Position numbers and translations under genes: made by a program
Part shown: positions 4,746-49,769 of the stretch, piece after piece
Layout of the letters: every line of letters begins with the position of its first letter
Position numbering within the stretch: the first letter of the stretch is position 1
Assembly (NCBI RefSeq): GCF_003177035.1
Contig: NZ_CP029488.1
Coordinates: 3,726,501-3,790,500 of the forward strand
Reading direction: 5' to 3'
DNA: 64,000 bases
Source: Salinisphaera sp. LB1
GTDB lineage: Bacteria; Pseudomonadota; Gammaproteobacteria; Nevskiales; Salinisphaeraceae
The notes under the pieces: generated by a model
Databases searched by the model: none
Seen by the model: only the letters and a program-made list of their open reading frames with translations
What the model was told of the DNA's origin: nothing

Positions 4746-5282
4746 ATGTCCTCCCAGCGGATCATCAAGAAATATCCGAATCGACGGCTGTATGACACTG
4801 AAGTCAGCCGCTACATCACGCTCGAGAACATTCGCCAGCTCGTCATCGCCAACGAGGACTTCAAGGTCGTGGACAAGCGCAGCGGGCACGACATCACCCG
4901 CAGCATCCTGCTACAGGTGATTAGCGAGCAGGAGGAAGGCGGCAATCCGATCTTTCGGACCGAGGTGTTACGCAACATCATTCGCTTCTATGGCGACTCG
5001 ATGCAGAGCACCATGAGCTCGTATCTCGAGCTGTCGCTCGAATTCTTCAACGAGCAGCAGTCCCAGTTCCGGGACCGATTGCGCCGTTTGCTGGGGGCGA
5101 ACAACCCGCTCGCCGCTCTGCGCGAGCTATCCCAGGACCAGCTGCCCATATGGCGCAGCGTGCGCCGCGAGTTTCTCGCCAACATGGCGCGCCGTGACTC
5201 GTCATCAGCGAAAGAGCAGGCAACCGGGCGCCCCGAAGACGGCGGACCGACCGGCGCCGGGCGTAACCCGCCATCCGATTGA
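4746..5282 (+). CDS. phaR: Polyhydroxyalkanoate synthesis repressor PhaR
   Basis: DNA-binding repressor of phasin and polyhydroxyalkanoate genes that is released when it binds PHA granules. The N-terminal PHB/PHA accumulation regulator domain (RIIKKYPNRRLYDTEVSRYI) is well conserved, followed by the second regulator domain to about residue 110. The C-terminal 40 residues are low-complexity and hydrophilic. It is 178 residues, normal for the family. No PHA synthase or phasin gene lies in this window, so targets are elsewhere. The sRNA promoter begins 30 bases after its stop. Confidence 0.92.
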   Translation: MSSQRIIKKYPNRRLYDTEVSRYITLENIRQLVIANEDFKVVDKRSGHDITRSILLQVISEQEEGGNPIFRTEVLRNIIRFYGDSMQSTMSSYLELSLEFFNEQQSQFRDRLRRLLGANNPLAALRELSQDQLPIWRSVRREFLANMARRDSSSAKEQATGRPEDGGPTGAGRNPPSD

Positions 5283-5312
5283 ATGGGCCGGGAAAATTTC
5301 TGGCGACGACGC

Positions 5313-5340
5313 TTGATTTATACGAAAGTCGTACTATACT
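5313..5340 (+). promoter_or_regulatory. Sigma-70 promoter of the small RNA, with palindromic operator in the spacer
   Basis: TTGATT at 5313-5318 and TATACT at 5335-5340 are separated by 16 bases. The spacer holds the perfect palindrome TACGA-AAG-TCGTA (5321-5333), in the classic position for a repressor operator. The predicted start is near 5347. The regulator is unknown. Confidence 0.75.
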
Positions 5341-5346
5341 TAGTTC

Positions 5347-5434
5347 ATGGTCGCGAAGGCGATCACCGAATCTCCTCCGAAAGGCCTAACGGCCTTTCTC
5401 GCACTTAGCCCCCTTATCCAAGGGGGCTTTTTTT
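5347..5434 (+). ncRNA. Putative trans-acting small RNA with exposed anti-Shine-Dalgarno motif
   Basis: About 88 nucleotides lie between a strong promoter and a strong terminator, with no convincing small protein. Predicted folds: hairpin 1 (GGTCGC/GCGATC, 5349-5364, loop GAAG); an unpaired stretch with TCTCCTCC (5371-5378), complementary to the Shine-Dalgarno sequence; hairpin 2 (AAAGGCC/GGCCTTT, 5380-5397); and a rho-independent terminator (AGCCCCCTT/AAGGGGGCT, 5407-5428, then seven T). This plan matches sRNAs that repress translation by pairing C/U-rich loops with ribosome sites. It sits between phaR and the convergent pnp gene. I do not recognise a named family. Confidence 0.72.
5407..5434 (+). 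terminator. Rho-independent terminator of the small RNA
   Basis: Nine-base-pair stem AGCCCCCTT/AAGGGGGCT with an ATCC loop followed by TTTTTTT. Confidence 0.9.
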
Positions 5435-5509
5435 ATGGTCACGATCCCATGGCCCGGCGCGCGCTGCAGTGGCCGGGCCGCGCCGGCGCGAGGGTGATCA
5501 GAGCGCATG

Positions 5510-5537
5510 AAAAAGGCGCCCCCGGGGAGGCGCCTTT
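5510..5537 (-). terminator. Terminator after pnp
   Basis: Read on the minus strand, AAAGGCGCC pairs with GGCGCCTTT and ends in a short T run, 31 bases after the pnp stop. It closes the metY-pnp operon. Confidence 0.85.
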
Positions 5538-5568
5538 CGCGTTGCCGCCAGACCAGCAACCGAAGCGA

Positions 5569-7692
5569 TCAGCCCTCGGTGCTTTCCTCGGGCTCAGCCA
5601 GTTCCTTCATCGAAAGCCGGACACGGCCCTGACGATCGACTTCCAGCACCTTGACCTTGACCATCTGACCTTCGGAGAGCTCGTCCGTGACGTTCTCCAC
5701 ACGATGCGGCGCGATCTGGGAAATATGCACCAGACCGTCGCGGCCCGGCGCCAGGTTGACGAAGGCGCCGAAGTCGACAATGCGAACGACCTTGCCTTCG
5801 TAGATCTGGCCGGCCTCGATGTCCTTGGTGATCTCCTCGATACGCTGGATCGCGAGATCCGCCGCCGACTTGTCGACCGCGGCCACATGGATCGTGCCGT
5901 CGTCCTCGATATCGATCGACGCGCCGGTTTCCTCGGTGATGGAGCGGATCGTCGCGCCGCCCTTGCCGATCACGTCGCGGATCTTCTCCGAATCGATCTT
6001 GATCGTGAAGATGCGCGGCGCCCACTCGGAGACTTCCTTGCGCGGTGCGTCGATCGCCTCGGACATGACGTCCAGGATGTGCAGACGGCCTTCCCTGGCC
6101 TGGTCCAGCGCGACTTCCATGATCTCGCGCGTAATGCCGCCGATCTTGATATCCATCTGCAGCGCGGTGATGCCGTTCTTGGACCCGGCCACCTTGAAGT
6201 CCATGTCGCCGAGGTGATCCTCGTCGCCCAGGATATCCGTGAGCACAGCGAACTTGTCGCCTTCCTTGATCAGGCCCATGGCCACACCGGCGACCGGCGC
6301 CTTGATCGGCACGCCCGCGTCCATCAACGCCAGGCTCGTGCCGCAGACCGAGGCCATGGAGGACGAGCCATTGGATTCGGTGACTTCCGAGACCACGCGC
6401 ATGACGTAGGGGAACTCGTTCTCGAGATCCGGCAACACGCCCATGATACCGCGCTTGGCCAGCTTGCCGTGGCCAATCTCGCGCCGCTTCGGACTGCCCA
6501 TGAAGCCGGTCTCACCCACGCAGTACGGGGGAAAGTTGTAGTGCAGCATGAACGGGTCTTCATACTTGCCTTCGACTGCATCGATGAGCTGGGCATCGCG
6601 ACCCGTGCCGAGCGTGGCGACCGCCAGGGCCTGGGTCTCGCCGCGGGTGAACAACGCCGAGCCATGGGTCCGTGGCAGCACGCCGGTACGAATGGTCAGG
6701 TCGCGCACGGTGCGCGTGTCGCGCCCGTCGATACGCGGCTCGCCTTCGAGGATCCGCGAGCGCACGGTCTTCTTCTCGAGATCGCCGAGTGCAGCCTTCA
6801 CGTCTTCACGCGAGTAGCCTGTCTCGTCTTCGGTCGCCACCAGTTCCTCGACGACCTTGTCCTTGATCTCGCCCAGCCGTGTCTGGCGCTCCTGCTTGTC
6901 GGCGATCTGGTAGGCGGCGGTGACGTCCTCGCCGGCAATGCGCGCGACCGCCTCGGCCAGCGACTGGTCCTTCTCGGCCGCCTGCCAGTTCCAGGCCGGC
7001 TTGGCGGCTTCCGCTGCCAGCGCACTGATCGCCTGGATCGCGGCCTGCAACTGTTCGTGGCCGAACAGCACCGCCCCCAGCATGATCTGTTCCGACAGCT
7101 GCTTGGCTTCGGATTCCACCATCAGCACAGCGTCGGACGTACCGGCGACGACGAGGTTGAGGTCGCTTTCCTTGATCTGGGTCGCGCTCGGATTGAGTAC
7201 GTACTCGCCATTGGCATAACCCACGCGTGCCCCGCCGATGGGGCCGTCGAACGGCATGCCCGACAGCGCCAGCGCGGCCGAGGCGCCGATCATCGCGGGA
7301 ATGTCGGGATCGATCTCGGGATCGACCGACATCACCGTGGCAATGATCTGGACTTCGTTATGGAAATCCTTGGGAAACAGCGGCCGGATCGGACGATCGA
7401 TCAGACGGCAGGTCAGCGTTTCCTTCTCGCCCGGGCGGCCTTCGCGCTTGAAGAACCCGCCGGGGATCTTGCCGCCGGCATAGGTGCGCTCCTGGTAATT
7501 GACGGTCAGCGGAAAGAAATTCGCATCGGGCTTGGCTTCCTTTTTCCCGACCGCGGTGACGAGCACCACGGTGTCGCCCATGCTGACCTTGACCGCGCCA
7601 TCCGCCTGGCGCGCGATTTCACCGGTTTCCAGCGTGACGTCGTGCTCGCCGTACTGGAACGTTTGCCGGCTGGTGACTTCTACTTTACTCAC
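5569..7692 (-). CDS. pnp: Polyribonucleotide nucleotidyltransferase (PNPase)
   Basis: Phosphorolytic 3'-5' exoribonuclease of the RNA degradosome; trimeric ring. The 707 residues show the normal order: first RNase PH domain (1-140), alpha-helical domain, second catalytic RNase PH domain (about 310-540), KH domain ([20 protein letters not shown], about 560) and S1 domain ([15 protein letters not shown], about 625). Length matches the family. It is the last gene of the operon behind rpsO, as in Escherichia coli, with the rpsO terminator between them. In E. coli the pnp leader is processed by RNase III and autoregulated; the 30-60 base leader here is too short to judge. Confidence 0.98.
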
Positions 7693-7721
7693 GTATTTCT
7701 TCCTGGCTTCTTGCTTTCTGA

Positions 7722-7762
7722 AACAAAAAAGCGCCCGGCTCGGGCATCCCGAGGGGCGCTTT
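7722..7762 (-). terminator. Terminator between rpsO and pnp
   Basis: On the minus strand AAAGCGCCC pairs with GGGCGCTTT around an inner CTCGGG/CCCGAG hairpin and is followed by a T-rich tail. It corresponds to the partial terminator found between rpsO and pnp in enterobacteria, so read-through into pnp is expected. Confidence 0.85.
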
Positions 7763-7789
7763 GGCGATCAAGCGAAAATGATCGCGCGC

Positions 7790-8059
7790 TTAGCGACGCA
7801 GACCAAGATCCTGAATGATCGTCTTGTAGCGGTTGGCGTCATGACGCTTGACGTAATCGAGCAGCTTGCGGCGACGGTTGACCATCTTCAGCAGGCCACG
7901 ACGCGAATGGTGATCCGCCTTGTGCTGGTCGAAATGCGCGCCGAGCTGGCTGATACGGGTGGTCAGCAGCGCGATCTGCACTTCGGGCGAGCCGGTATCG
8001 CTGCTTCCGCGGCCATATTTCTCGATAACGTCGGCTTTTTCTTGCGTCGACAGAGCCAT
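7790..8059 (-). CDS. rpsO: 30S ribosomal protein S15
   Basis: Primary 16S rRNA-binding protein that organises the central domain of the 30S subunit. The start at 8059 follows an AGGAG ribosome site and gives exactly 89 residues, the standard size; an upstream in-frame ATG adds 12 unrelated residues. The conserved [11 protein letters not shown] and [19 protein letters not shown] stretches are present. It has its own promoter about 160 bases upstream; the intervening leader could carry the S15 autoregulatory fold, which I cannot model here. Confidence 0.98.
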
Positions 8060-14520: not shown

Positions 14521-14597
14521 TGGTAGCGGGGGCAGGATTCGAACCTGCGACCTTCGGGTTATGAGCCCGACGAGCTGCCAGACTGCTCCACCCCGCA
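14521..14597 (-). tRNA. Initiator tRNA-fMet (anticodon CAT)
   Basis: A 77-base cloverleaf with encoded CCA. Anticodon CAT is closed by three G-C pairs (GGGCTCATAACCC), the hallmark of initiator tRNA, and the D stem GAGC/GCTC matches E. coli metY. The acceptor reads TGCGGGG/CCCCGCT, so position 1 and 72 are T-T, unpaired as in initiators but not the usual C-A. It heads the rimP-nusA-infB operon. Confidence 0.95.
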
Positions 14598-16228: not shown

Positions 16229-16313
16229 TGGTGCCGACGGCCGGACTCGAACCGGCACAGCTCTCGCTACTGCCCCCTCAAGACAGCGTGTCTACCAATT
16301 CCACCACGTCGGC
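16229..16313 (-). tRNA. tRNA-Leu (anticodon GAG)
   Basis: An 85-base class II tRNA with a long variable arm and encoded CCA. The acceptor GCCGACG/CGTCGGC pairs perfectly and the anticodon loop reads TTGAGGG. It follows secG by 16 bases, the same neighbour as in E. coli, so the two are probably co-transcribed. Confidence 0.96.
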
Positions 16314-49410: not shown

Positions 49411-49769
49411 GGGGGCGACATGGCTTCGACGCGGATGTCAAAACCCGAGGTGCATGCCGAGGTTGCAATCTTCCTCGTTAATCCGTTTGCACCCTAAGCT
49501 AGTTGCGAACGACGACAACTACGCTCTAGCGGCTTAAAGCCCGCTGGTGCCCGCCCGGCAAGTGTCTGTGCTTCCGGTCCCGGGTATCGACTCTCACAGA
49601 CTCGCGGCAAGGCCCCGCTTCGGGCCGACCCGTTAAGAGTAAACGAAGATACGCGTGAGTTGTCCCTTTTCGTCGGGTAGCTCATGCCGACAATCAAAGA
49701 CGAAATAAGCATGTAGACCCGAGGGTTGAGAATCCGCGGACGCGGGTTCGATTCCCGCCGCCTCCACCA
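49411..49769 (+). ncRNA. ssrA: Transfer-messenger RNA (tmRNA)
   Basis: Rescues stalled ribosomes and tags proteins for degradation. The 359-base gene pairs its ends as a tRNA-Ala-like acceptor (GGGGGCG with CGCCTCC, then ACCA). The tag frame runs 49505-49534 and reads ANDDNYALAA, then TAA at 49535-49537. The usual E. coli tag is ANDENYALAA, so Glu is replaced by Asp. A -10 box TACAAT lies at 49391-49396, about 45 bases after the IS right end. Confidence 0.97.

Follow-up and report, generated by a model that had tools for sequence, protein, structure and literature searches.

A conserved small RNA family beside phaR in Salinisphaera and its relatives, with a probably regulated promoter

Introduction

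What is encoded in the short interval between phaR and pnp of Salinisphaera sp. LB1, how might it be controlled, and on what might it act? An initial annotation, made from the letters of the DNA, proposed a trans-acting small RNA (sRNA) here. We analyzed this locus within a window of 64,000 nucleotides (the whole stretch of DNA under analysis; NZ_CP029488.1, positions 3,726,501–3,790,500), and compared it with related genomes. Coordinates below are those of the window.

Results

Anatomy of the sRNA gene

The gene is on the forward strand. Its −35 hexamer TTGATT (5313–5318) and −10 hexamer TATACT (5335–5340), separated by 16 bases, form the one sigma-70-like promoter called in a scan of 4800–6000 (shuffle mean 0.3). 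The spacer contains the palindrome TACGA-AAG-TCGTA (5321–5333), a proposed operator; promoter and palindrome are as the initial annotation had described them, within 5313–5340. An RNA of ∼88 nt (5347–5434) is predicted, with its start near 5347. Its predicted fold comprises hairpin 1 (5348–5365), hairpin 2 (GAAAGGCC-UAAC-GGCCUUUC, 5379–5398) and an intrinsic terminator (5407–5434), itself a hairpin (5407–5428) followed by a T tract (5429–5434). The three hairpins and the terminator claimed earlier are thus recovered, at a folding energy of −40 kcal/mol for 5347–5434 compared to a shuffle mean of −23.4 (z = −5.79; 0/200 shuffles as good). The terminator scan of 4800–6000 gave two overlapping calls, both at the sRNA end, which against a shuffle mean of 1.2 is by itself not far above chance. 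Two conserved stretches are predicted to be unpaired: UCUCCUCC (5371–5378), complementary to GGAGGAGA ribosome-binding sites and the proposed seed, and UCGCACUU (5399–5406). The former had been described as an anti-Shine-Dalgarno (anti-SD) loop; it is present and unpaired, but belongs to the linker that joins hairpin 1 to hairpin 2, not to a loop.

Pfam matches bear out the neighbors named earlier. Upstream is phaR (4746–5282, forward strand; PF07879 and PF05233), the polyhydroxybutyrate (PHB) accumulation regulator gene, and the predicted sRNA start lies ∼65 bases past its stop codon on the same strand. Downstream and convergent is pnp (5569–7692, reverse strand), the polynucleotide phosphorylase gene, with PNPase, S1 and KH domains. 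An ATG-started open frame of 823 codons (5347–7818) runs antisense through pnp; because there is no stop within the RNA, we do not regard it as evidence for a peptide. Elsewhere the window carries a tmRNA gene (49411–49769) and tRNA genes at 14524–14597 and 16232–16313.

Conservation and family membership

BLAST with a 136-base query matched the sRNA in 51 of 61 relatives, representing 15 of 20 genera. The named species genomes (84,980) were scanned with part of the sRNA core, yielding 66 stretches; one (L041, Christensenella), by eye without promoter and terminator, was left out as a chance match, so that 65 loci with 66 core occurrences remain. These were in Salinisphaera, Nevskia, Solimonas, Sinimarinibacterium, Hydrocarboniphaga, Panacagrimonas, Fontimonas, Algiphilus, Abyssibacter and other bins, mostly Salinisphaerales/Nevskiales, with a few loci under other taxon labels. 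Core invariance in this set is partly by construction, since the scan fixed part of the core. In a motif-independent set of loci taken from the BLAST places, CTCCTCC was kept in 20/20, which argues that the unit is more than chance. Also kept in 20/20 was CTTTCTCGCA (5394–5403), which covers the 3′ side of the hairpin 2 stem plus the linker after it. The family core, CTCCTCC(A)GAAAG-N-CTTTCTCGCA plus terminator, is present in the window.

The fold is conserved as well. Pairs 6 and 7 of hairpin 2 lie beyond the search motif. They are standard in 72/72 unique members, and all changes in them are compensated (G-C to A-U in four, C-G to U-A in two) and may represent a few inherited events; pair 8 did no better than shuffled sequence (14/68 vs 15.4). 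Terminator hairpins fold in 72/72 members, using 36 different arms. The 5′ segment, which contains hairpin 1, varies freely in sequence across relatives although most examples fold (mean z −3.1, n = 62, base-shuffled control; 52/62 below −1.5). These pairs were counted by script, not from RNAalifold, which found only three pairs on our alignment A1, a result we put down to a one-base shift of hairpin 2 between groups in the MAFFT alignment. Lack of conservation of TCTCCTCC and the hairpins had been named beforehand as a possible refutation of the sRNA; both are kept across relatives.

No Rfam family reached its gathering score at the window locus or at the loci of 12 relatives. None of the open-licence papers listed for small RNAs of Salinisphaera, or for PhaR and sRNAs in four genera, described this RNA by title and abstract. 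Judged from sequence, 5347–5434 is a member of a conserved sRNA family that no Rfam entry captures at its gathering score. The reading as an sRNA gene is upheld by its own promoter, the conservation of the anti-SD stretch, and a promoter that is itself conserved and probably regulated.

Genomic context

Among the 67 core matches (L041 included), 53 had PhaR upstream and/or Pnp downstream in the fetched flanks, and 43 had both. Apart from L041, 13 copies had neither neighbor there, and 10 of these carry the same PhaR-like operator (see below). Two genomes (G001 and G009) have the sRNA directly after dksA.

Several variations of arrangement were noted. Tandem copies, two or three within ∼0.2–2.2 kb, occur at G045:C1:3508406–3510591 and G019:C4:83486–83746, and on G035:C8 and G043:C67. 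For the core copies of L058, L087 and L046, a −10 box or PhaR-like site was not found, and those of L058 and L087 come shortly after another ORF; possibly all three are 3′UTR-derived versions. Two copies away from phaR (L051 and L063) lie downstream of a gene for a 1149-aa protein, which presumably resembles a fused acyl-CoA mutase.

A PhaR-like operator in most of the family

In most other members the promoter has a TTGACA-like −35 hexamer and the −10 hexamer TATACT, with TGCACYGCAACA beginning at the sixth −10 base. A PhaR consensus, TGCRNYGCASMA, has been deduced in Bradyrhizobium by footprinting and by aligning promoters (PMC6201568). The family motif matches it except for A at position 10, and A at that position also occurs in the site tables of the same paper (PMC6201568). 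Since A is usual at position 10 in these genomes, our operator expression was relaxed at positions 10–11 of the consensus. So defined, a PhaR-like operator is present in 49/55 core occurrences (50 loci), or in 47/53 distinct promoters once L206, a repeat of two L029 copies, is removed. All operators are at one offset, 5 bases past the start of the −10 box, where 0.014 would be expected per promoter. This count covers 48 of the 51 matching genomes, with G033, G034, G049 and some extra copies outside it. The named-genome set gave 54/66. Its 12 occurrences without the operator were L032, L054, L078, L092 and L096 (the exceptional clade described below and its sister) and seven outside the window's clade (L046, one L053 copy, L055, L058, L072, L079 and L087); L053 and L055 keep degenerate operator forms.

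The same operator was found at most 300 bases before the phasin domain in 18/20 fetched, mostly short, phasin loci, linking the motif to the control of phasin genes within this order. In 12 of the 18 its distance from a −10-like box is again 5 bases. Long Phasin_2 genes were rejected as PhaR targets, as 30 loci gave three chance-like matches to the relaxed operator. From these sequence patterns we judge that the conserved promoter is probably regulated, and that the usual family control is probably a PhaR-like operator lying over −10/+1.

A palindrome in place of the operator in the window's clade

We looked for the PhaR-like site in the window's own promoter (L001) and it was absent, suggesting that PHB control is lost or indirect here. 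In this genome TGCANYGCAACA has only four occurrences, as many as its control. The operator is absent from six examined promoters, those of the window's genome (G000), G006, G001, G009, G013 and G002. A tree was built from Pnp, DksA, RpsO and CysZ, some of which are missing from some genomes; there the first five form a group with support 67, here called clade A, and the six together, the related G002 included, have support 90. Across clade A, 15/16 spacer bases and 6/6 −10 bases do not vary, in contrast to the diverging flanks and hairpin 1; in an ungapped comparison 0 of the next 25 columns are invariant, a difference exaggerated by indels.

The palindrome had been read as a sign of dedicated control. 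That the promoter is conserved and probably regulated stands, but the palindrome is not the usual control element of the family, being seen within the sRNA promoter in the five genomes of this one clade only. Nor did the suggested search for a TACGA-N3-TCGTA regulon bring one to light: the window's genome has the motif in two places, the sRNA promoter and the inside of an open frame, by eye a probable SorC-type regulator. Searching seven genomes gave extra places in G000, G012, G001:C33, G001:C3, G013:C43, and G008:C9 and C29; that of G001:C33 is inside an open frame, and no palindrome regulon was detected in the places inspected (G000, G012 and G001:C33). In G012, whose sRNA promoter itself uses a PhaR-like site, the 13-base palindrome is extended to ATACGACTTTCGTAT (L199, 1500–1514), ∼50 bases upstream of a 151-aa ORF that has no Pfam match and whose product is by eye probably secreted.

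The regulator gene itself appears to have been dropped from some genomes. Genome-wide searches did not find phaR in G001, G009, G010 or G013, its absence being weaker evidence in G009 and G010, which are 87 and 81% complete. Three clade-A genomes, the incomplete G009 among them, are included. On the simplest history suggested by these sequences, the common ancestor of the six gave up the PhaR site, that of the five gained the palindrome, and phaR later went missing from the branch of three.

Candidate targets

Genes preceded by a ribosome-binding site complementary to the proposed seed were collected with the pattern GGAGGAGA-N1-9-ATG. It occurs 29 times in the window's genome, versus two for the reversed pattern; the counts were 23 in G008, 30 in G018 and 12 in G022, each versus two reversed. 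In the window's genome, 26/29 sites precede open frames of at least 80 codons, and 25 of these have Pfam matches. Eight of the 25 are solute-binding proteins (L228, L257, L259, L261, L262, L263, L273 and L277) and four are carbon permeases (L244, L265, L270 and L274). Ten more are mostly of catabolic type: a CoA transferase, acyl-CoA dehydrogenase, sarcosine oxidase delta, ureidoglycolate lyase, aldose epimerase, Rieske oxygenase, FAD oxidase, short-chain dehydrogenase, GFO/IDH oxidoreductase and a cupin. Three (NadA, DUF2147 and CBS) are outside the pattern.

For a baseline, 40 ORFs were drawn and 30 run, three being left out for overlap with control or phaR genes; the 24 with Pfam matches included no solute-binding protein and three carbon importers. 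One-sided Fisher tests gave p values of 0.002 (solute-binding proteins) and 0.008 (carbon importers), to be read with the small size of the baseline and its E-value cutoff of 1e-10, versus 1e-5 for the candidate genes. A control set of other SD sequences, GGAGG[CGT]GA, had 47 matches in the window's genome; 44 loci were examined and 20 had frames of at least 80 codons. This set includes one IS21 gene in four copies, and several of its members fall inside genes. The 14 control frames run gave nine Pfam matches and no solute-binding protein.

The picture varied among other genomes. In G008 (16 of 20 frames run) fitting candidates were DctP twice, Peripla_BP_6, NMT1_3, cytochrome/SBP_bac_3, MadL, a PQQ dehydrogenase and a sigma-54 activator, and those not fitting were a response regulator, DUF445 and Usp. 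By eye, there were no solute-binding proteins among 8 of the 12 candidates of G022 and 8 of the 30 of G018. Complementarity between sRNA and candidate target beyond the octamer was not evident by eye. The skew is also confounded, as highly expressed solute-binding proteins may simply have strong ribosome-binding sites. As far as sequence matching goes, the genes here with ribosome-binding sites matching the proposed seed appear to be mostly those of carbon uptake and catabolism.

Comparison with known sRNAs

The closest parallel is MmgR of Sinorhizobium meliloti (alpha-r8; RF00519, suhB), in which a CU-rich single-stranded anti-SD core likewise precedes the terminator hairpin. Its promoter is reported to have a PhaR (AniA) site, and the RNA to be linked to PHB (PMC8401924, PMC12542648); a dyad between −35 and −10 is also described (PMC8401924). 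PhaR repression of MmgR is reported from a site tested by EMSA, TGCACCGCAGCA, and from overproduction of the RNA without PhaR (PMC12542648). Unlike MmgR, the present family has a different hairpin and is usually placed beside phaR and pnp, and the window's own promoter is without the PhaR site. The RF00519 covariance model scores 25.4 bits at the window locus, compared to a gathering score of 41, and 26.2 at L013; in 11 other loci there was no match at E up to 1. Since these scores are far below threshold, we set the family apart from MmgR, and its targets may differ. By analogy, the family would work like MmgR in control and type of seed, with homology not implied.

RF02278 (Betaproteobacteria toxic sRNA, bdhR, S17) shares a UCUCCUCC-like single-stranded stretch, a short hairpin and a terminator. 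The target list reported for S17 is rich in transporters and includes a sigma-54 activator (PMC11722255). The window locus scored 21.6 bits compared to a gathering score of 50, and the window's genome had no match at E ≤ 0.001. In RF02278-like members the short hairpin holds a further CU-rich anti-SD site, which the sRNA here lacks, its hairpin 2 loop being UAAC.

Some side observations concern RF02278 itself. RF02278-like sRNAs (CTCCTCCATCCTCCTTTGGTGG) match 50/185 genomes of the class, only one above gathering, so that family looks wider than its name. Among 30 such loci (L154–L183), 27 cores were located, and two (L154 and L162) have an upstream PhaR-like site; many others share, by eye, a different promoter signature. 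The Cuckoo, or alpha-r14 (NfeR1), sRNAs of rhizobia, with their CCUCCUCCC motif, are also trans-acting and built around anti-SD motifs; by description they are set apart from the present family by other hosts, loops and genomic context.

Discussion

The reading we favor, with a probability of roughly 0.6, is a storage-linked brake on carbon uptake: a family of trans-acting sRNAs, held by PhaR in most members and under palindrome control in the window's clade, that would block translation of uptake and catabolism genes. What the genomes show directly is the gene, how it is conserved, the operator-like sites and the exchange of one for another. From these we infer transcription, repression by PhaR, the blocking of targets and the physiological purpose. 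In most of the family, when PHB is low, free PhaR on its −10-box site would hold the sRNA promoter off. As PHB accumulates, PhaR would move to the granules and the sRNA would be made. Its UCUCCUCC stretch would then pair with GGAGGAGA-type ribosome-binding sites and block translation, mainly of mRNAs for ABC/TRAP solute-binding proteins, sugar and acetate permeases and catabolic enzymes, lowering carbon import. In the five genomes of the window's clade, where the PhaR site is lost, the spacer palindrome may be bound by another putative regulator instead.

The same sRNA could instead have the PHB-granule genes (phasins, phaC, phaZ) as its true targets, as proposed for MmgR, with the uptake genes being bystanders that happen to have strong ribosome-binding sites. 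The phaR neighborhood and the operator common to sRNA and phasin promoters would suit such targets, and loss of MmgR is reported to raise PhaP1 and PhaP2 (PMC8401924). Yet GGAGGAGA was absent from 20/20 phasin leaders (in a search for the octamer only), and neither a phasin nor phaC was among the Pfam-recognized candidates of the window's genome, so we consider granule targets unlikely, if the strongest competitor to the uptake brake.

We give still less credence to a global translation damper, in which UCUCCUCC would mimic the 16S anti-SD and lower initiation at a large number of strong ribosome-binding sites; the "toxic" RF02278 sRNAs might be read in this way. The octamer does resemble the anti-SD, with no evident complementarity beyond it, and overexpressed RF02278 members are reported to suppress growth (PMC11722255). 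General damping is harder to square with the functional skew of the candidate genes in the window's genome, and the related sRNA S17S reportedly left exponential growth of E. coli unimpaired (PMC11722255). Very improbable is that there is no independent sRNA and that the unit is simply where the phaR transcript ends, terminator included, perhaps set free by processing of the kind reported for S17S (PMC11722255): position and strand relative to phaR would allow it and the 4800–6000 scan called no other terminator-like site, but the sRNA has its own promoter with conserved spacer or PhaR-like operator, keeps that operator in most copies away from phaR and pnp, and persists beside dksA in two genomes without detected phaR.

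The storage-linked uptake brake can be set in a wider frame, which we offer tentatively and at clearly less than even odds. Granule titration of PhaR releasing an anti-SD sRNA would be a storage-to-uptake feedback circuit that arose more than once in Proteobacteria: as MmgR in alphaproteobacteria, as the present Nevskiales family, and possibly among RF02278-type sRNAs such as L154. The RNA of the Salinisphaera clade would then have outlived its sensor, with the operator replaced by a new palindrome and phaR later lost in three genomes.

If the favored reading is true, this is a conserved sRNA for a bacterial group in which no such RNA is described, by title and abstract, among the open-licence papers listed, and PhaR-controlled sRNAs would extend beyond the alphaproteobacteria. 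It would also be a traceable case of an sRNA that kept its seed while its transcriptional control was swapped and the original regulator lost. PHB producers are of biotechnological interest, and for them a storage-linked brake on uptake would be a practical handle.
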